Part shown: positions 20,033 through 27,407 of the stretch, in pieces
How positions within the stretch are numbered: position 1 is the stretch's first letter
Layout: every line of letters begins with the position of its first letter
Assembly: GCF_031458255.1 (NCBI RefSeq)
Contig: NZ_JAVDYC010000001.1
Coordinates: forward strand, 8,108,501-8,172,500
DNA from: Catenuloplanes niger
GTDB lineage: Bacteria > Actinomycetota > Actinomycetes > Mycobacteriales > Micromonosporaceae
Length of the DNA: 64,000 bases
Reading direction: 5' to 3'
Position numbers and translations under genes: made by a program
The notes under the pieces: model-generated
What the model was told of the DNA's origin: nothing
The model's input: only the letters and a program-made list of their open reading frames with translations
Database searches by the model: none

Positions 20033-21193
20033 TCACGGCGCGGCGGTCTCGACGGTCTCGGTGACGTCCGCGGGTTTCCCGGCCGTCGCGCGGCGGGCCC
20101 GGACGGTGCGGACCAGCCGGTAGCCGGCCCAGGCCAGCAGCAGCGCCAGCAGGCCGATCAGCACCCACGGCGGCGCCCACAGCGACGTGCCGAGCGTGAC
20201 CGGCCCGAGCAGCGTGTCCGGTGTGGACGGCACCACGGACACGGTCGCGGTGAGGCGCCCGGCCGGCTGCACGCCGGTGATCCGCTCGGTGACGGTGATC
20301 TCGCTGCCGGGCAGCAGCTCCGGCACCGCCAGCGCGTCCGTGGACGCGAGCCGCCAGCCCGCCGGGCCGGTCACCCGCACGGTCGACGCGCCGGTCAGCC
20401 GCAGGTTGCCGGTGTTGCGCAGCCGGTAGGTGACCGTGGTGGTGCCGCCGGACGCCGGGTTCAGGCCCTGGGTGTGCGACACGCGCAGCCCGTCGATCGT
20501 CATCTCCGGCCGGGCCGGCCCGTCCACGGTCAGGTAGATCCGGACCGCGATGCGCCGGTCGACCAGCACGGTCTGCCCGTTCGCGTCCGTGGTGGACTCC
20601 GCGATCGACGCGACCAGCCCGCCCGCGTGGTCGCCCGGCGTGGCGTTCTTCGGCACGGTCAGCCGGAACGGCACGTCCAGGCGGGTGTTCGCCGGCACCG
20701 TGTACGCGCGCGACGCCAGCGTCACCCACGATCCGACGTCGGTCGGTGACTGCGCCGCGGGCAGCAGCGCGAACGCGCCGTCCGCCGTGGTGTGCGCGTC
20801 CGTGCCGTACACGGTGAAGGTCAGGGGTGCGTCCGTCAGGTTCGTGATGCCGACGTGGTCGGTCCGCTCACTGCCCGGCGCGTTCGCGTAGATGAAGTAG
20901 TCCCGCCCGTCCGGGCCCCGGTCCGTCGACGGCTGCACCGACCACTTCGTGTCCGCCGCGACGGACGCCGCGCCCCGGGCCTCGGCGGCGAGCGCGGTGC
21001 CGCGGGCGATGTGCGTCGTGCCGGCGGTCGTGCCGGTCGCCGGCCCGGCGGCGAGCGTGGCTCCGGCGGCCGGCCCGGCGGTCACGACGGGTGCGGAGGC
21101 GGCGGCGGGCGCGGGGAGGGCGAGTGCCGGAACGGCCACCGCGAGGAGGGCCAGCGCCGTGGCCGGGCGGCGGGAGTGTCGGATGGTGGTCAC
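20033..21193 (-). CDS. DUF916/WxL-associated secreted protein with C-terminal membrane anchor
   Basis: 386 residues. The signal peptide is at 1-33. A DUF916 (WxL peptidoglycan-domain)-like beta domain covers about 82-210 with TKWSVQPSTDRGPDGRDYF, NAPGSERTDHVGITN, YGTDAHTTADGAF and VPKNATPGDHAGGLV. A second Ig-like domain follows at about 215-335 (RLRNTGNLRLTG). One membrane span at about 341-360 is followed by a basic tail. In Firmicutes such proteins partner WxL proteins on the cell wall. Here it lies downstream of, and is likely co-transcribed with, the HtaA-WxL gene, so an accessory role in displaying that haem-binding protein is inferred. Confidence 0.8.
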   Translation of the reverse strand: MTTIRHSRRPATALALLAVAVPALALPAPAAASAPVVTAGPAAGATLAAGPATGTTAGTTHIARGTALAAEARGAASVAADTKWSVQPSTDRGPDGRDYFIYANAPGSERTDHVGITNLTDAPLTFTVYGTDAHTTADGAFALLPAAQSPTDVGSWVTLASRAYTVPANTRLDVPFRLTVPKNATPGDHAGGLVASIAESTTDANGQTVLVDRRIAVRIYLTVDGPARPEMTIDGLRVSHTQGLNPASGGTTTVTYRLRNTGNLRLTGASTVRVTGPAGWRLASTDALAVPELLPGSEITVTERITGVQPAGRLTATVSVVPSTPDTLLGPVTLGTSLWAPPWVLIGLLALLLAWAGYRLVRTVRARRATAGKPADVTETVETAAP

Positions 21194-21270
21194 GGCGCGG
21201 AAGCTCCAATGTGGTGGGATGGCAGGACGGCGACGCCGGCCCAGGGGAGGGGCCGGCGTCGATCCGTACG

Positions 21271-21301
21271 GGTGCCGGCCCGCTCGACCCGGGCCGGCAC
21301 C
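21271..21301 (-). terminator. Hairpin between the HtaA-WxL and DUF916-like genes
   Basis: A 12-bp perfect stem (ggtgccggcccg and its complement) with a 7-base loop starts 16 bases after the HtaA-WxL stop. It may attenuate transcription into the DUF916-like gene. Confidence 0.6.
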
Positions 21302-21316
21302 GTCAGCGGCCCCGGA

Positions 21317-22453
21317 TCAGGCCAGGGTGAGCGTGAGCACCGCGGCGTAGGAGGAGCCGGCCGCGCTCGACTCGGGCACGCCGAGGCTCAGCGCGGCACC
21401 GCAGGTGGAGCTGCCGAGGCTGCTCCCCGCGTCGGCGCTGCACAGGGCCCGGCTGCTGCCGAGACCGCTGCCCGGGGCGGCGGGCGCACCGGGCGTGACC
21501 GCGGCCGTGACGCCGTTCGCGGCCTGCAGGCCGCTGCTGACGACGGTCGCGGTCGGGGTCCAGCCGAGGTTGTCGGCCGGGATGACGCCACCGGTGGTGC
21601 TGGTGAAGTCCGTGGCCTGGCCGACCAGGTCCCAGCCCGCGTTGGTGCCGCGCAGGTCGCTGACCGTGACCGCGTTCAGCGCGCCGGTGGCGGTCGCGCC
21701 CGGCGTCGCCGCCGAGAGCGCCACCGACGTGCCGGACGTGGTGAGCGTCAGCGCGCCGCCGGTCACGGCCGCGGTGATCTGCTGGGTGGCGCTGCCACCG
21801 CCGGGCTGGCCGGGGTTGCCCGGCTCCTCCGGCTCCTCCGGCGTCGTCGTGGACGACGACGCCGAGGCGGTCAGCGGGTCGAGCTGCGTGCCACCGGCGT
21901 AGAACCCGTTGAACGCGCTGGCACCGGTGTCGGTGAGCGTGGCCGCGAGGTTCGTCCAGGTGATCGTGCCACCGTCGACCGCCGGGTTGGTGACCGCGAG
22001 CGTGGCCACCTCCGCCTGGTCGAGGTGCTGCTCGGCCATGCCGGTCAGGTCCACGTCCGCGAACAGCGTGCCGGTGCCGTCGGTGTCGACGACGACGGTC
22101 GGGTTCGCGATCGTGATGGTGAAGAAGTGCGCCGGGTACGAGAAGACGACCGTCCCCCCGTAGTTCACCGTCGCCGTCCCGGCCGCGGCGTCGAACGTGC
22201 CGCCGGTGGCCGGGAAGTCGAAGGTGCCGTCCGTGTCGATGCTGGCGCCGTTGCTGGCACCGATCGGCGGGTTGCCGTTGCCGCTCTTCACGTAGTTGCG
22301 GAACGAGGCCTTGAAGCCCCAGTCCAGCTTGCCCCCGGCGACGTCGGCGGGGGCGGCCGAGGCCGGGGAGGCGACGGTCAGCACCGCGGCGGCGCCGATG
22401 GTCAGGGCGGATGCCCAGTACGCGGCCCGGCGAGGGCCGGTCTTCAGGGCCAT
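21317..22453 (-). CDS. HtaA haem-binding domain fused to a WxL-like domain, secreted
   Basis: 378 residues. The signal peptide ends near SPASAAP (about 33). An HtaA domain spans about 40-190: LDWGFKASFRNYV, GTFDFP, VVFSYPAHFF and ANPTVVVDTDGTGTLFADVD. Tyr54 and His109 are candidate haem ligands, by analogy with the conserved Tyr and His of corynebacterial HtaA. An acidic Pro-rich linker (205-220) leads to a WxL-like domain (225-378) with VTVSDLRGTNAGWDLVGQATDF, containing W274-D-L276, and a terminal SYAAVLTLTLA strand. HtaA proteins normally end in a membrane helix; none is present, so the WxL module may attach it to the wall. Iron boxes lie upstream. Confidence 0.85.
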   Translation of the reverse strand: MALKTGPRRAAYWASALTIGAAAVLTVASPASAAPADVAGGKLDWGFKASFRNYVKSGNGNPPIGASNGASIDTDGTFDFPATGGTFDAAAGTATVNYGGTVVFSYPAHFFTITIANPTVVVDTDGTGTLFADVDLTGMAEQHLDQAEVATLAVTNPAVDGGTITWTNLAATLTDTGASAFNGFYAGGTQLDPLTASASSSTTTPEEPEEPGNPGQPGGGSATQQITAAVTGGALTLTTSGTSVALSAATPGATATGALNAVTVSDLRGTNAGWDLVGQATDFTSTTGGVIPADNLGWTPTATVVSSGLQAANGVTAAVTPGAPAAPGSGLGSSRALCSADAGSSLGSSTCGAALSLGVPESSAAGSSYAAVLTLTLA

Positions 22454-22520
22454 GTGTGTCCCTTTCGGACATTCCTCGGAGGGTGCGAACCCTCACCCGG
22501 CTCTTGGGACCGGGCGGCAG

Positions 22521-22539
22521 TTAGGTTAGCCTTGCCTAA
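22521..22539. promoter_or_regulatory. DtxR/IdeR iron box 1
   Basis: ttaggttagccttgcctaa closely matches the 19-bp DtxR/IdeR consensus (TTAGGTTAG-S-CTAACCTAA). It lies 68 bases upstream of the HtaA-WxL start, so that gene should be repressed by iron-loaded regulator. Confidence 0.9.
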
Positions 22540-22596
22540 CAAGCAAAGTAAATGATCAACTTTGTGAGCAGGTGCACTGGTGCCTCCGCTCGTGGT

Positions 22597-22615
22597 TTAG
22601 GTTAGCCTCGCCTAA
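22597..22615. promoter_or_regulatory. DtxR/IdeR iron box 2
   Basis: ttaggttagcctcgcctaa is a second match to the DtxR/IdeR consensus, 27 bases before the GTG at 22642. It is positioned to repress the rightward haem-uptake operon. The two boxes are 57 bases apart in the divergent promoter. Confidence 0.9.
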
Positions 22616-22641
22616 CTAACTGGATCAAGCGTGGAGGGTCT

Positions 22642-23571
22642 GTGCAGATCAGGACCGGTCTGACCGCGGTGGTGGTGCTGGCCGTCGTGGTGCTGCCGGC
22701 GGCGCCCGCGCGCGCCGACACGACCGCGAACGGCACCGGGGGCCAGCGCCTCACCGTCTCCAAGTCGGAGCAGCTCAGCCGCGCGGGCGAGACCGTCACG
22801 GTCTCCGGGCGCGGCTACGACGACACCAAGGGCATCTACGTCGCGTTCTGTGTGGACAACGGCGCGGGCGCGCTGCCCACGCCGTGCGGCGGCGGCGCGG
22901 ACACGTCCGGCAGCTCCGGCGCCTCGATCTGGATCTCGTCGAATCCGCCGTCCTACGCCGAGGGCCTGACCACGCCGTACGGCAGCGGCGGCTCGTTCTC
23001 CGCCTCGATCCGCGTGACACCCACGATCGGCGCGGTCGACTGCACGGTCCGGGCCTGCTCCGTCGTGACCCGCAACGACCACACCCGCACCCAGGACCGC
23101 TCCCAGGACGTGCGGATACCCGTGACCTTCGCCTCCGGCGGTACGAACGGGTCCGGCGGCTCCGACGGCGGCGGCTCCAACGGTGGCGGCGCCAACGGCG
23201 GCGGCACGACCGGTGGCGGCAACGCGCCGGCCGGCGGCACGGGCGACGCCGCCGGCGGTGCGGGCAACACCGGAACGGCGGCCGGCGGCGGGCCGGGCGG
23301 TGCCGGCGTGCCGGCCCCCGGCGGGAGCGCCACACCCGGCCGCACGTTCGCCGCACCGGCCGCGACCGCTCAGGCCACGGCCTCGCTGCCACCGGCGCCG
23401 GGCGAGCCGGCCGCGATGGCCGGCCGGGCGACGCCGCTCAACCGGGTCAGCGCGGCCACGCCGCTCGGTCACTGGTGGGGCATCGGCGCCGCGTTCCTCG
23501 CGGGCATCGCCATCGCCGTGGTCGCCGGCCGCCTCCGCCGCCGCGGCAACCGCACCGGGACCACCACATGA
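22642..23571 (+). CDS. Secreted, membrane-anchored protein of haem-uptake loci
   Basis: 309 residues. GTG start with GGAGG at 6 bases. The signal peptide ends near ARADTT (25). One beta-sandwich domain (about 35-165) contains TVSGRGYDDTKGIYVAFCVDN and a few cysteines probably in disulphides, with IWISSNPPSYAEGL and DHTRTQDRSQDVRIPV. Such domains are commonly encoded beside HtaA genes in actinobacteria (family knowledge). A Gly/Ser/Asn repeat linker (165-235), a Pro/Ala stretch, one membrane helix near 280-300 and an RLRRRGNR tail follow. It would pass haem across the wall or hold HtaA near HmuT; this is inferred from position only. First gene of the iron-boxed operon. Confidence 0.8.
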   Translation: MQIRTGLTAVVVLAVVVLPAAPARADTTANGTGGQRLTVSKSEQLSRAGETVTVSGRGYDDTKGIYVAFCVDNGAGALPTPCGGGADTSGSSGASIWISSNPPSYAEGLTTPYGSGGSFSASIRVTPTIGAVDCTVRACSVVTRNDHTRTQDRSQDVRIPVTFASGGTNGSGGSDGGGSNGGGANGGGTTGGGNAPAGGTGDAAGGAGNTGTAAGGGPGGAGVPAPGGSATPGRTFAAPAATAQATASLPPAPGEPAAMAGRATPLNRVSAATPLGHWWGIGAAFLAGIAIAVVAGRLRRRGNRTGTTT

Positions 23572-23678
23572 CCGCCGTCCGGCCGCACGGCGCGACCCCA
23601 CCCGGCGACGCCGCCGCCCCGGGCCACCCGGCACCCGACGGTCCCGCGGCGCCCACCGGCAACCTCGGCCGCGCGGCG

Positions 23679-23750
23679 GACGCCGGGCATGCCGCGTACG
23701 CCGGGCATGCGGCGGACGCCGGGCATGCGGCGGACGCCGGCCGCGCGGCC
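23679..23750. repeat. Four 18-bp tandem repeats before hmuT
   Basis: Units start at 23679, 23697, 23715 and 23733, with the core acgccgggcatgc; the last unit is diverged. The frame is open and in phase with hmuT, and would encode DAGHAA, YAGHAA, DAGHAA, DAGRAA. Confidence 0.85.
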
Positions 23751-23822
23751 GGGGCTCGCCGCGCGGCGGCGGCCGGCCGGGCCGCGCGTTCCACATCGGA
23801 TCACCATCGGAGAGGGAGTGCC

Positions 23823-24836
23823 GTGCGCAAGCTGGCCACCATCGCGGCCGTGGCGGCACTGTTCGCCGCCGGGGGCTGCACCACCGTCGCGGAGGCGGGC
23901 GGGTCCAGCTCGTCGGCCGGCGGGGACTGCGGCATCGTGACCGCCGCGCTGGACGGTGACGACATCACGCCGCTCGACCCGGCGCCCACGCCCGCGCTGC
24001 CGGTCACCGTGGACTCCGCGGACGGGTCGACGGTGACGGTCACCGACGTCAGCCGGATCCTGGCGGTCAACCTCTACGGCTCGCTCGCGGAGATCGTGTT
24101 CAGCCTCGGGCTGGGCGGCAACGTGGTCGGGCGGGACACGTCCACCACGTTCCCGGCCGCGGCGAAGCTGCCACTGGTCACGCCGCAGGGCCACGACCTC
24201 GGCGCGGAGGCGGTGCTGAAGCTCGACCCGACCGTGGTGATCGCGGACGACAGCATCGGGCCGGCCGCGGTCCTGGAGCAGCTGCGCAGGTCCGGCATCC
24301 CGGTCGTCATGATCGACGACGAGCAGAACCTGGAGGCGGTTCCGCGGCACATCCGCGCGGTCGCGGCCGCGCTCGGCGTGCCCGAGGCCGGCGAACGGCT
24401 GGTCACCCGCGTCCAGGGCGAGATCGACGCGGCGAAGGCGACCGCGCCCGGCGGGAAACCACCCCGGATCGCGTTCCTCTACGTGCGCGGCAGCGCGGGC
24501 GTCTACCTGATCGGCGGCAAGGGCGCCGGTTCGGACGCGATGATCCAGGCGATCGGCGCGGTCGACGCGGGCACCGAGATCGGGCTGGAGAAGTTCCGGC
24601 CGATGACCAGCGAAGGTCTGATCAACGCGGCTCCGGACGTGATCCTGGTGATGACCGAGGGCCTCAACTCGGTCGGCGGCGTCGACGGCCTGCTCGAGCT
24701 GCCCGGCGTCGCGCAGACCCCGGCCGGGGTCAACCGGCGGATCGTCGACATGGCGGACGGCATCCTGCTCAACTTCGGCGCCCGCACCGGCCGCGCCATC
24801 CAGGCCCTCGCCGAGGCGGTGTACACGCCGTGCTGA
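23823..24836 (+). CDS. hmuT: Haem ABC transporter substrate-binding lipoprotein
   Basis: 337 residues from the GTG at 23823, chosen because GGAGAGGGAG precedes it and a perfect lipoprotein signal follows, with a GGC lipobox at Cys19. The type III binding-protein fold has VTVTDVSRILAVNLYGSLAEIVFSLG, the DTSTTFP segment and LKLDPTVVIADDSIGP, typical of HmuT/BtuF. It would take haem from the surface proteins and hand it to HmuU. The same frame stays open back to an ATG at 23568 overlapping the previous stop, which would add 85 residues with a DAGHAA repeat; the lipoprotein signal argues against that start. Confidence 0.9.
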   Translation: MRKLATIAAVAALFAAGGCTTVAEAGGSSSSAGGDCGIVTAALDGDDITPLDPAPTPALPVTVDSADGSTVTVTDVSRILAVNLYGSLAEIVFSLGLGGNVVGRDTSTTFPAAAKLPLVTPQGHDLGAEAVLKLDPTVVIADDSIGPAAVLEQLRRSGIPVVMIDDEQNLEAVPRHIRAVAAALGVPEAGERLVTRVQGEIDAAKATAPGGKPPRIAFLYVRGSAGVYLIGGKGAGSDAMIQAIGAVDAGTEIGLEKFRPMTSEGLINAAPDVILVMTEGLNSVGGVDGLLELPGVAQTPAGVNRRIVDMADGILLNFGARTGRAIQALAEAVYTPC

Positions 24837-26008
24837 GTTCCCGGTCGTCGCTCCGCTCGTCCGGCGCGGCGCCACTCCCGGGGACGGCGGACGGCCCTCG
24901 CACGACGAGCGGGTCCGAAGGCCACCCGCCGTCCCAGGCCGCCCGTGCCGCACGGGGACGGTCGTCGCTCCGGACCCGTACCCCCGGAGCGGTGTTGATC
25001 GTCGCCCTGGCCGTTGCCGTGGTCGTCGTGTGCGTGGTCGCGGCCGGCTCCGGGCAGGTGCCGATCGCACCGTCCGAAGTGGTCGGTTCGATCCTGCACC
25101 GGCTCGGGCTGGACGTCGGCCCGCTGCCGGCGGTCGCGCAGGGCGAGAACGCGCTGTGGGTGGTGCGGTTCCCGCGTGTCGTGCTGGCCGCGATCGTCGG
25201 CGCCGCGCTCGGCAGCGCGGGCGCGCTCATGCAGGGCGTGTTCGGCAACCCGCTCGCCGAGCCCGGTGTGATCGGCGTGTCGTCCGGTGCGGCCGTCGGT
25301 GCCGCGTCCGCGATCGTCTTCGGCGCGTCGCTGTTCGGCCCGTGGACCGTGGCCGCGGCCGCGTTCGCCGGCGGGCTGATCACCACCGCGGCCGTCTACG
25401 CGATGTCGCGGTCCGGCGGCCGGACCGAGGTGGTCACGCTCGTGCTCACCGGCGTCGCGGTCAACGCGACCGCGGGCGCGCTGCTCGGCCTGCTGATGTT
25501 CCTCACCGACGACGACGGCGTCCGCGCGATCGCGTTCTGGCAGCTCGGCAGCCTCGCCTCGGCGAACTGGGCCGCGGTCGCGGTCGCCGGTCCGTGCGCG
25601 GTCGCGGGCGTCACCGTGGCCGTGCTGCTGGCCCGCCGGCTCGACCTGCTCGCGCTCGGCGAGCGCCCGGCCCGGCACCTGGGCGTCGACACGGAGCGGC
25701 TCCGGCGTACCGCCATCGTGGTGGTGGCCCTGCTGACCGCCTCGGCGGTCGCGTTCACCGGGATCATCGCGTTCATCGGCCTGGTCGTGCCGCACCTGGT
25801 GCGGATGGTCGCCGGGCCGGGCCATCGCGTGCTCATCCCGGCCGGCGCGCTCGGCGGTGCCGTCGTGGTGGTCCTCGGCGACCTGCTCGCCCGCACGCTG
25901 CTGGAGTATCAGGAGCTGCCGCTGGGCGTGCTCACCGCGGTGGTCGGCGGCCCGTGCTTCTTCTGGCTGCTGCGCCGCACCCGCGCCCGGGCGGGAGGCT
26001 GGGGATGA
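24830..26008 (+). CDS. hmuU: Haem ABC transporter permease (FecCD family)
   Basis: 392 residues. The GTG overlaps the last codons of hmuT by 7 bases. The first ~50 residues are polar and disordered, longer than usual. About ten membrane spans follow. Family motifs are present: RFPRVVLAAIVGAALGSAGALMQGVFGNPLAEP.., GVSSGAAVGA, FWQLGSLASANW and FIGLVVPHLVRM. FecCD permeases work as dimers with two ATPase subunits to move haem or siderophores inward. hmuV follows with an ATGA overlap. Confidence 0.92.
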   Translation: MLSSRSSLRSSGAAPLPGTADGPRTTSGSEGHPPSQAARAARGRSSLRTRTPGAVLIVALAVAVVVVCVVAAGSGQVPIAPSEVVGSILHRLGLDVGPLPAVAQGENALWVVRFPRVVLAAIVGAALGSAGALMQGVFGNPLAEPGVIGVSSGAAVGAASAIVFGASLFGPWTVAAAAFAGGLITTAAVYAMSRSGGRTEVVTLVLTGVAVNATAGALLGLLMFLTDDDGVRAIAFWQLGSLASANWAAVAVAGPCAVAGVTVAVLLARRLDLLALGERPARHLGVDTERLRRTAIVVVALLTASAVAFTGIIAFIGLVVPHLVRMVAGPGHRVLIPAGALGGAVVVVLGDLLARTLLEYQELPLGVLTAVVGGPCFFWLLRRTRARAGGWG

Positions 26009-26766
26009 TCGGAGCACGGGACGCACGCGTGCTGCTCGGTGGCCGGCCGATCGTCGACGGAGTGACCGTGACCGTGGACCGCGGCGAGGTGGTCGCGCTG
26101 ATCGGCCCGAACGGCGCCGGAAAGTCCACGCTCCTCGCCGCGCTCTGCGGCGACGTGCCGCTGGCCGGTGGCGAGGTGCTGCTCGACGGACGGCCGCTCG
26201 GCTCGTACCGGCCGGTCGAACTCGCCCGGCTGCGCGCCGTGCTGCCGCAGCAGAACACGGTCACGTTCCCGTTCACGGTCCGGCAGATCGTGGCGATGGG
26301 CCGGGCGCCGTGGGCCACCACGGACGGTGTCGACGCGGCGCTGGCGACGACCGAGATGACCGCGTTCGCGGACCGGCCGTTCCGCGCGCTCTCCGGCGGT
26401 GAGCAGGCCCGCGCGTCGCTGGCCCGGGTGCTCGCCCAGGACACGCCGGTGCTGCTGCTCGACGAGCCGACCGCCGCGCTCGACCTGCGGCACCAGGAGC
26501 TGGTGCTGCGCACGGCCCGGCAGCGGGCCGCCCGCGGCGACGCGGTCGTGGTGGTGCTGCACGACCTCGGCCTGGCCGCCGCGCACGCGGACCGGATCGT
26601 GCTGATGGCCGCCGGCCGGGTGCGCGCGGACGGACCGCCCGCGGACGTGCTCACCGAGACGTTGCTGACCGAGGTGTACCGGCACGACATCGAGGTCATG
26701 CCGCATCCCCGTACGGGCCGGCCGCTGGTGCTGCCCGTCACCGTTGCATCGGAGGACCTGACATGA
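26005..26766 (+). CDS. hmuV: Haem ABC transporter ATPase
   Basis: 253 residues. Walker A is GPNGAGKST (34-42), the Q-loop sits in LPQQNTVTFPFTV, the signature is LSGGEQARASLARVL, Walker B is VLLLDEPTAALD and the H-loop is in VVLHDLGLAAAHADR. The start ATG overlaps the hmuU TGA, and its own stop overlaps the haem-oxygenase ATG. It powers the HmuTUV importer. Confidence 0.92.
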   Translation: MIGARDARVLLGGRPIVDGVTVTVDRGEVVALIGPNGAGKSTLLAALCGDVPLAGGEVLLDGRPLGSYRPVELARLRAVLPQQNTVTFPFTVRQIVAMGRAPWATTDGVDAALATTEMTAFADRPFRALSGGEQARASLARVLAQDTPVLLLDEPTAALDLRHQELVLRTARQRAARGDAVVVVLHDLGLAAAHADRIVLMAAGRVRADGPPADVLTETLLTEVYRHDIEVMPHPRTGRPLVLPVTVASEDLT

Positions 26767-27407
26767 CCGGATTCGCGCTCGACCTTCGCAAGTCCACCGC
26801 CACCGCGCACCGCGACGCGGAGTCGACCGGGTTCCTGTCCCGGCTCGCGGTCGGCGCGGTCCCGGTCGCCGGGTTCGCGGCGCTGGCCGCCCAGCACTAC
26901 CTGATCTACCGCGAGCTGGAGAGCGTCGGTGAACGGATGCGCGCGGACCCGGTGGCCGGCGCGTTCGTCGATCCGGCGCTCGACCGGCTGCCCACGCTCG
27001 AGGCCGACCTGCGCGAGCTGCACGGCCGTGACTGGGCGTCGGCGGTGTCCGCGCTGCCGGCCACCGAGCGCTACACGTCGCGGCTGCGCACCGCGTGCGC
27101 GGAGTGGCCGGCCGGGTTCATCGCCCACCACTACGTGCGCTACCTCGGCGACCTGTCCGGTGGGCTGATGCTCGGCCCGGCGCTGCGGTCGTCCTACGGC
27201 GCGGGCACGTCGTTCTACGTCTTCGACCGGATCCCGGACCCGCGCGCCTACAAGGACGCCTACCGCACGCGCCTGGACGCGCTGCCGTACCCGCCGGCGG
27301 AACTGGAGCGCCTGGCGGCGGAGGCGGCGATCGCGTACCAGCTCAACATCGACGTGCTGCGCGAGCTGGGCCTCGACTTCCCGGACGACCTGGCCGCCGC
27401 GGCCTGA
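26763..27407 (+). CDS. hmuO: Biliverdin-producing haem oxygenase
   Basis: 214 residues, the usual size for HmuO. It opens imported haem to biliverdin, CO and free iron in the cytoplasm. The proximal haem ligand is His16 in TATAHRDAES. The distal-helix glycines that bend over the haem are in YLGDLSGG (127-134). The conserved SFYVFDRI segment follows. It is the last gene of the iron-boxed operon, linked to hmuV by an ATGA overlap, so uptake and iron release are made together. A strong hairpin terminator follows within 6 bases. Confidence 0.93.
   Translation: MTGFALDLRKSTATAHRDAESTGFLSRLAVGAVPVAGFAALAAQHYLIYRELESVGERMRADPVAGAFVDPALDRLPTLEADLRELHGRDWASAVSALPATERYTSRLRTACAEWPAGFIAHHYVRYLGDLSGGLMLGPALRSSYGAGTSFYVFDRIPDPRAYKDAYRTRLDALPYPPAELERLAAEAAIAYQLNIDVLRELGLDFPDDLAAAA

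Follow-up and report, generated by a model that had tools for sequence, protein, structure and literature searches.

A haem-uptake locus of Catenuloplanes niger with a probable two-gene WxL/WxLIP anchor and a predicted neocarzinostatin-like surface protein

Described systems related to the locus

The locus described here occupies positions 20033-27407 of a 64,000-nucleotide stretch of the Catenuloplanes niger genome ("the window") and combines elements of several known systems. With the HtaA/ChtA-HmuTUV-HmuO system of Corynebacterium, it shares a CR domain with a tyrosine ligand and a helper histidine, an HmuTUV transporter, and a haem oxygenase. A section of PMC12494546 describes in corynebacterial CR domains an axial tyrosine, its serine four residues earlier, a helper histidine, and a propionate-binding tyrosine, and CR proteins are thought there to have a C-terminal helix of their own that seats them in the membrane. 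In contrast, the C. niger locus encodes a single HtaA domain, fused to a WxL domain and devoid of its own helix, next to a WxLIP protein; a neocarzinostatin (NCS)-like protein stands ahead of HmuT, and the genome harbors no second HtaA. In Streptomyces atratus, two tandem HtaA genes lie by a haem oxygenase, according to the cluster description in PMC10060970.

Like the Firmicutes WxL/WxLIP clusters, the locus encodes a large-WxL-type protein (a ligand-binding domain in front of a C-terminal WxL domain), with a neighbouring DUF916 protein that has a helix at its C-terminus. A portion of PMC10599100 presents, for Firmicute pairs, an AlphaFold prediction of WxL clasped by WxLIP, and its authors suggest there that the WxLIP helix enters the host membrane. 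The present pair differs by its single W-x-L motif, a NEW3-like domain, the lack of a DUF3324 match, and the lack of a second WxL match in the window, and also by its DtxR-type boxes, its haem genes, and its actinomycete host genome.

Known apoproteins of the NCS family hold an aromatic chromophore as ligand in a cleft, and the disulfide pairing of four cysteines is known for neocarzinostatin and macromomycin (PF00960). The protein encoded at 22642 resembles them in its predicted fold and in the four cysteines of its subtype; unlike them, it is membrane-anchored, belongs to a haem locus, carries the H-x(3,4)-DRSQD motif of the NCS-like domains, and falls under the Pfam cut-off in sequence. It also shares a DC...C...DHT core with ThiX of the Corynebacterium glutamicum bcc-aa3 supercomplex (PDB ID: 7qhm), which is instead lipid-anchored; in the relevant part of PMC8795186, the soluble domain of ThiX is unresolved in the structure and its activity is not known. 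A passage of PMC13251363 reports CwpG of Actinoplanes missouriensis as a sortase substrate with an NCS-like domain, the deletion of which leaves growth and sporangia the same.

HtaA, HmuTUV, WxL, and WxLIP are each known. The novelty lies in the anchoring architecture; the haem locus itself is real and conserved and bears DtxR-type boxes, its greatest surprise being the NCS-like domain. Among the open-licence literature of PMC, no paper was found that connects HtaA to WxL or neocarzinostatin to HmuT, and the text of PMC9772566 contains no occurrence of actinobacteria, heme, iron, or Streptomyces. Taken as a whole, the locus is fairly likely to be an HtaA haem-uptake system with a two-gene WxL/WxLIP anchor and an NCS-like haem relay.

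Layout and regulation

The locus is composed of two divergent gene arms separated by two 19-bp DtxR-type boxes. The minus arm carries the HtaA-WxL gene followed by the WxLIP (DUF916) gene; the plus arm starts with the NCS-like gene at 22642, followed by HmuT, HmuU, HmuV, and the haem oxygenase. The features of the anchor, the boxes, and the NCS-like gene are as follows:

20033-21193, minus strand: WxLIP, with an N-terminal hydrophobic stretch, DUF916/PGBD, a NEW3-like domain (NPCBM_assoc), and a C-terminal helix with a basic tail
21317-22453, minus strand: secreted HtaA-WxL protein lacking a membrane helix at its C-terminus; Pfam HtaA and WxL above cut-off
21323-21859, minus strand: WxL domain, amino acids (aa) 199-377 (PF13731), with the motif W274-D-L276 at 21626-21634
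21866-22333, minus strand: HtaA (CR) domain, putatively haem-binding, aa 41-196 (PF04213, E 6.6e-42), with Ser50, Tyr54, His109, and Tyr185
22521-22539, plus strand: DtxR/IdeR-type box between the arms, on the side of HtaA-WxL, exact pattern fit
22597-22615, plus strand: DtxR/IdeR-type box between the arms, on the side of NCS-HmuTUV, exact pattern fit
22642-23571, plus strand: NCS-like surface protein of predicted NCS fold, with its domain at 22729-23142, a Gly/Asn-rich linker, and a C-terminal membrane helix

Both boxes, to which the original prediction had already assigned control of the two arms, fit without mismatch the pattern TTAGGTTAGSCTNRCCTAA, which we take to be the DtxR/IdeR consensus; if three mismatches are tolerated, 0.01 matches are expected in the window, and no third box within that tolerance occurs in it. 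The HtaA and NCS genes have one or more boxes of at most three mismatches between them in 30/30 relatives from the family Micromonosporaceae, and the equivalent of the 22597-22615 box is also found in the nearest of them (L096). Boxes elsewhere in these 30 stretches are few, two of them (L110, L114) being near the haem oxygenase. Among six classic loci, one (L133) has boxes with four mismatches only, and in the Actinomadura loci of seven genomes the boxes deviate at two or three positions. Micromonosporaceae loci generally have DtxR-type boxes, which several distant NCS-HmuTUV loci (L213-L221) lack. The locus is probably an iron-repressed haem-uptake locus of a Catenuloplanes-type actinomycete, presumably under DtxR control.

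The genome is a single contig of 9.74 Mb, in which the 21317-22453 protein is the sole HtaA match; whole-genome totals are four DUF916 and two WxL matches. Two further WxL/WxLIP gene pairs are found in it (G000:C1:1475321-1476385, L003 and L007; 1330683-1331552, L004), as well as a fourth DUF916 gene at 6231980, with no WxL match listed adjacent. The closest named relative at the locus is Catenuloplanes japonicus, the HtaA-WxL protein of which is 88% identical.

The HtaA-WxL protein

The HtaA-WxL hybrid put forward in the original prediction holds: both PF04213 (144.3 bits for a cut-off of 24, E 6.6e-42) and PF13731 (30.2 bits for a cut-off of 25, E 5.4e-7) match one secreted protein, signal peptides being assessed here by hydropathy and by eye only. 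All 28 aligned proteins (28/28) have an HtaA and a WxL match with E of 0.1 or lower; the two Thermobifida members score under the WxL cut-off. The full-length AlphaFold model (pLDDT 91.2, pTM 0.55) retrieves, with Foldseek, C. glutamicum HtaA (PDB ID: 6jsc, target TM 0.87), as well as 6jsa and 9o0k, all of CR fold. The WxL part has no clear structural match in this search; later matches, to FimG and others, are weak, and the Foldseek table gives no indication of the half of the model to which they align.

Ser50, Tyr54, His109, and Tyr185 are invariant in the 28 aligned proteins, and so are the residues of W274-D-L276, so that all the residues singled out by the original prediction (Tyr54, His109, and W274-D-L276) are conserved. 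By comparison with the corynebacterial CR domains, His109 may be the helper histidine and Tyr185 the propionate-binding tyrosine. The other invariant tryptophan of the WxL domain belongs to a W298-x-P motif, and the domain ends with L-T-L/V-T-L. In 14/28 proteins, an NCS-like stretch is found between HtaA and WxL (hhalign probability 99, 33% identity). WxL and DUF916 as chance resemblances were considered and ruled out, since the curated cut-offs are passed and WxLIP is present in 55/56 WxL-bearing loci of named genomes.

A quick HtaA-domain tree was built from 155 rows, thinned at 80% identity to 99, of which 19 are WxL-fused. The fused domains fall into one clade of Micromonosporaceae (support 97), one of Nocardiopsidaceae (support 100), and two further places. 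The tree requires four changes for the WxL fusion; repeated fusion events are only suggested, because well-supported branches force just one of the four.

WxLIP and the two-gene anchor

The DUF916-like partner of the original prediction was also confirmed: in the 20033-21193 protein, PF06030 matches aa 97-194 (E 2.4e-11), and PF10633 matches as well (E 1.9e-5). PF06030 is present in 22/22 aligned WxLIP proteins and NPCBM_assoc in 20/22, and the WxLIP profile reaches EfmWxLIP1 in the PDB at E 0.009.

C-terminal helices were called by Kyte-Doolittle hydropathy alone, over 19 residues with a threshold of 1.3. By this measure, none of the 28 aligned HtaA-WxL proteins has a C-terminal helix (highest value 1.28), versus 46/48 multi-HtaA proteins without WxL, in agreement with the earlier claim that the usual C-terminal anchor is missing. 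A helix is called in 22/22 WxLIP (lowest 1.48) and 23/23 NCS proteins (lowest 1.54), and it is the DUF916 and 22642 proteins that carry the membrane helices of the window locus. Since the helix typical of classic HtaA proteins is missing from HtaA-WxL while the adjoining WxLIP has one, WxL and WxLIP are most simply read as a two-protein membrane anchor that substitutes for HtaA's own helix, the two proteins presumably being in contact. The WxLIP helix is likelier to lie in the bacterium's own membrane than in that of a host, because these are haem loci, with DtxR-type boxes, of soil-type actinomycetes. Of the relay originally envisaged, the haem-uptake genes with DtxR-type boxes, the hybrid, and the DUF916 partner stand, and the layout is conserved; a membrane anchor is a simpler option than wall attachment, as the helix sits in WxLIP, the evidence being neutral on wall binding itself.

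The NCS-like protein

The original prediction took the 22642 protein for an HtaA-associated relay. AlphaFold and Foldseek point instead to an NCS fold, and such a domain is found also inside some HtaA-WxL proteins and in the place of HtaA in Actinomadura. PF00960 matches the window protein under its cut-off (E 0.0012, 19.3 bits for a cut-off of 25), and at E up to 0.1 it is present in 20/23 aligned proteins (best 1.6e-5). The model of the domain (pLDDT 91.8) has four PDB matches with E <0.001, namely macromomycin (5.4e-7), neocarzinostatin (1.5e-5), and two chains of a neocarzinostatin mutant. Searched against PDB sequences with a cut-off of E up to 1, the NCS profile retrieves one chain only, ThiX (E 1.1e-6). 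The NCS fold of the protein is a prediction; in distant proteins, the NCS label rests on custom profiles, the window domain being the one that was modelled.

In an alignment of 63 domains (window protein numbering), the window subtype, defined by two extra cysteines, accounts for 38. It keeps the other two cysteines, Trp97, Tyr105, and Tyr113 in 38/38, and Tyr66 and His147 in 37/38. In the other subtype (25 domains), Tyr66 is found in 24, Trp97 in 23, and His147 in 21.

HmuTUV and the haem oxygenase

The remaining genes of the plus arm were borne out as HmuTUV and a haem oxygenase by Pfam and NF010068:

23823-24836, plus strand: HmuT haem-binding protein (C. glutamicum HmuT, PDB ID: 5az3, E 3.2e-67), with a lipobox seen by eye
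24830-26008, plus strand: HmuU permease, FecCD (PF01032, E 2.3e-88)
26005-26766, plus strand: HmuV ATPase (NF010068, haem ABC (ATP-binding cassette) ATPase, 312.1 bits for a cut-off of 261)
26763-27407, plus strand: haem oxygenase (PF01126, E 1.6e-49; PDB ID: 1iw0, E 3.6e-36)

Upstream of HmuT, the reading frame continues without a stop across an Ala/Gly/His-rich repeat (23568-23822) as far as an ATG overlapping the stop codon of the NCS gene; the true start looks like the GTG at 23823, which stands behind GGAGAGGGAG and is followed by the lipobox. For C. glutamicum HmuT, an excerpt of PMC4926363 names His141, Tyr240, and Arg242, of which His141 and Tyr240 are haem ligands. Equivalents of Tyr240 and Arg242 are present in all of the 105 HmuT sequences compared (window and loci; picked by similarity to the window HmuT, some contigs being counted twice). 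The loss of the histidine as a speciality of the WxL-type loci was ruled out, as classic loci also lack it.

Conservation in Micromonosporaceae

A sample of 200 genomes of the family contains 48 with HtaA: 31 (window included) with one strong match, two of these with extra weaker ones, 14 with four HtaA domains, and three with weaker matches only. The loci read comprise the 30 strong ones besides the window, six of the 14 with four HtaA, and three regions with weaker matches (L126, L127, L129). All 30 strong single-HtaA loci present HtaA and WxL in one frame, an adjoining WxLIP, and NCS on the other side, with HmuTUV in 29/30 and a haem oxygenase in 28/30 (missing in L101 and L123, the latter at a contig end). 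In some of them, the HmuV or the haem oxygenase gene is inverted or located on the WxLIP arm. The co-occurrence survey in actinobacteria called for by the original prediction thus finds the layout conserved, here and, for WxLIP, in the named genomes below. The six four-HtaA loci possess two double-HtaA genes and HmuTUV, with no match to the window WxL, WxLIP, or NCS proteins at E 1e-3, and the three weaker loci have HtaA without the layout.

A second conserved WxL and WxLIP pair occurs in Micromonosporaceae (L166, L169, L181-L184, L186, L188, L202, L204), directly after an ABC ATPase distantly resembling HmuV and without HtaA or NCS. From its gene order, it may be another transporter-linked WxL system.

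Beyond the family

The best 80 of 217 confirmed relatives in named genomes yield 77 loci, classed with custom profiles. Thirty-one belong to the HtaA-WxL class, with WxLIP in 31/31, NCS in 30/31, and HmuTU in 28/31, the misses (L152, L158, L163) being near contig ends. They originate from Catenuloplanes, Actinoplanes, Paractinoplanes, Dactylosporangium, Virgisporangium, Micromonospora, Thermobifida, Nocardiopsis, Nonomuraea, and a Dehalococcoidia metagenome-assembled genome (MAG). Since at least 14 of the 31 are contigs of the family set, the two sets are not independent. Ten of the 77 loci (nine Actinomadura, one Acrocarpospora) carry NCS-WxL without HtaA, all with WxLIP and HmuTU; 21 carry HtaA without WxL, with WxLIP in none and NCS in two; and 15 carry WxL only, with WxLIP in 14. 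No HtaA match was found in 7/7 Actinomadura genomes of unstated completeness searched whole, and their NCS-WxL loci have boxes; NCS-WxL thus sits in Actinomadura where HtaA-WxL sits elsewhere.

In a phylum-wide survey of 346 genomes (requested completeness at least 90%, matches at E 1e-6), NCS-like domains were found in 18 and HtaA in 21, both being present in 12 for 1.1 expected. HmuT, HmuU, and HmuV lie beside the NCS gene in 13 of these 18 (the window genome, G015, and eleven others), and four genomes (G566, G638, G687, G703) combine NCS and HmuTUV with no HtaA match at 1e-6.

Several isolated loci deserve mention. The Dehalococcoidia (Chloroflexota) MAG contig (L170) carries HtaA-WxL, WxLIP, a haem oxygenase, NCS, HmuTUV, and a second HtaA, explained either by transfer between phyla or by a misbinned contig. 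In L212, L227, and L228 (one of them from Leifsonia), frames of 1158-1503 aa with several NCS-like and HtaA domains stand beside HmuTUV. At L224:7185-10063, NCS genes lie under a DtxR-type box, with no HmuTUV in the 18 kb read; one long protein ends with LASTG and a hydrophobic stretch, possibly a sortase signal.

Proposed mechanism and alternatives

As deduced from domain content and gene order, haem would be captured by HtaA through Tyr54, helped by His109. The WxL domain would be clasped by the DUF916 domain of the adjoining WxLIP, whose helix, in the bacterium's own membrane, would tether the pair. Haem might then be handed to the membrane-anchored NCS-like protein, first gene of the hmu arm, and on to HmuT, HmuUV, and the haem oxygenase; haem binding by both HtaA and NCS, and the order of transfer, are parts of this model. 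A wider proposal, which we offer tentatively and which may about as well fail as hold, with a slight lean to doubt, is that NCS-like is a new haem-binding domain, distinct from the HtaA/CR, NEAT, HasA, and HmuY folds, which can relay haem from HtaA to HmuT and can replace HtaA altogether when fused to WxL; that such tetrapyrrole-handling surface proteins may be the forebears of the neocarzinostatin-type enediyne apoproteins, or may have a common ancestor with them; and that WxL/WxLIP is a portable two-gene anchor with its helix in the own membrane.

A number of observations weigh against parts of this scheme. Regarding the anchor, the WxL domain has one W-x-L motif instead of the two of the classic domain, and DUF3324 (HBD) is absent among matches at E up to 0.1 in the 22 aligned WxLIPs. 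When every stretch after HtaA is counted, and not the C-terminal end alone, 10/31 HtaA-WxL frames of named genomes reach hydropathies of 1.31-1.54 (Thermobifida fusca highest), which we take as β-strands, and the gap between helix and no helix is unclean at its edges (1.28 in aligned, 1.54 in named HtaA-WxL). Regarding the transporter, the equivalent of His141 is found in 0/105 HmuT sequences, the window HmuT having an aspartate. As for regulation, T. fusca (L152) has boxes with four mismatches only, and the stretches read from 7/13 NCS-HmuTUV genomes (G566, G687, G638, G703, G542, G656, G609) contain no box of this consensus even when three mismatches are allowed; DtxR-type control is therefore not general, and these distant loci may be under other control. 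The NCS domain raises further points: Pfam names no NCS in ten proteins tested from Actinomadura and other distant genomes; its sole sequence relative in the PDB, ThiX, belongs to a respiratory supercomplex; and matches lean to haem loci because the profile was built from haem-locus members. In five of the 18 NCS genomes, the domain is not accompanied by a full HmuTUV set: G517 encodes a box-preceded NCS-HtaA protein and a further NCS pair, G074 an NCS fused to a weak HtaA, G690 a weak match, G684 a 4.7-kb contig, and G691 NCS genes under a DtxR-type box with no HmuTUV within the 18 kb read. Finally, the Fisher p for the NCS/HtaA co-occurrence (9e-13; 1e-11 without the window genome) is only a guide, because related genomes are not independent.

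Three other explanations have to be considered. Ig-like folds often bind proteins, and the NCS-like domain might accordingly make no contact with haem and recognize a haemoprotein, a polymer, or a partner, as HbpA does with haemoglobin in Corynebacterium; ThiX, in its respiratory complex, and the G691 genes fit this possibility. We find it doubtful, if by no means far-fetched, as the predicted fold is that of proteins holding an aromatic chromophore, most members of either subtype retain Tyr66, Trp97, and His147, and the domain adjoins HmuTUV in genomes without an HtaA match, where something must offer the ligand. It is unlikely, in our view, that WxL binds the cell wall directly and is merely stabilized by WxLIP, HtaA being a wall-bound haemophore and not membrane-tethered. 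Part of PMC10599100 describes WxL domains as peptidoglycan-binding, and HtaA-WxL has no membrane helix by hydropathy; a WxLIP with helix and basic tail, however, stands beside HtaA-WxL in 30/30 sampled and 31/31 named loci (overlapping sets) and in 0/21 named HtaA loci without WxL, which fits a tether while still being compatible with wall binding. The cargo could also be another iron tetrapyrrole, such as iron-coproporphyrin III: coproporphyrin III is made by S. atratus, according to a section of PMC10060970, and a soil-bacteria study suggests, in a portion of its text, iron-porphyrin release by Streptomyces and uptake by Mesorhizobium (PMC10881299). The haem oxygenase in 28/30 sampled loci and the HmuV score above the haem-ABC model cut-off make this very improbable.

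Implications

With a membrane-tethered HtaA-WxL/WxLIP pair as the favored explanation, the anchor of a haem-uptake protein would be supplied as a separate gene pair, taken from a surface system known from gut bacteria. That soil-type actinomycetes have such a pair in a DtxR-boxed haem locus argues for the own membrane, and makes testable the question of whether the WxLIP helix enters the own or the host membrane. The recurrent tie of the NCS fold to HmuTUV, with and without HtaA, makes this domain a candidate new haem-binding domain, and also points to a possible origin of the drug-carrier apoproteins.

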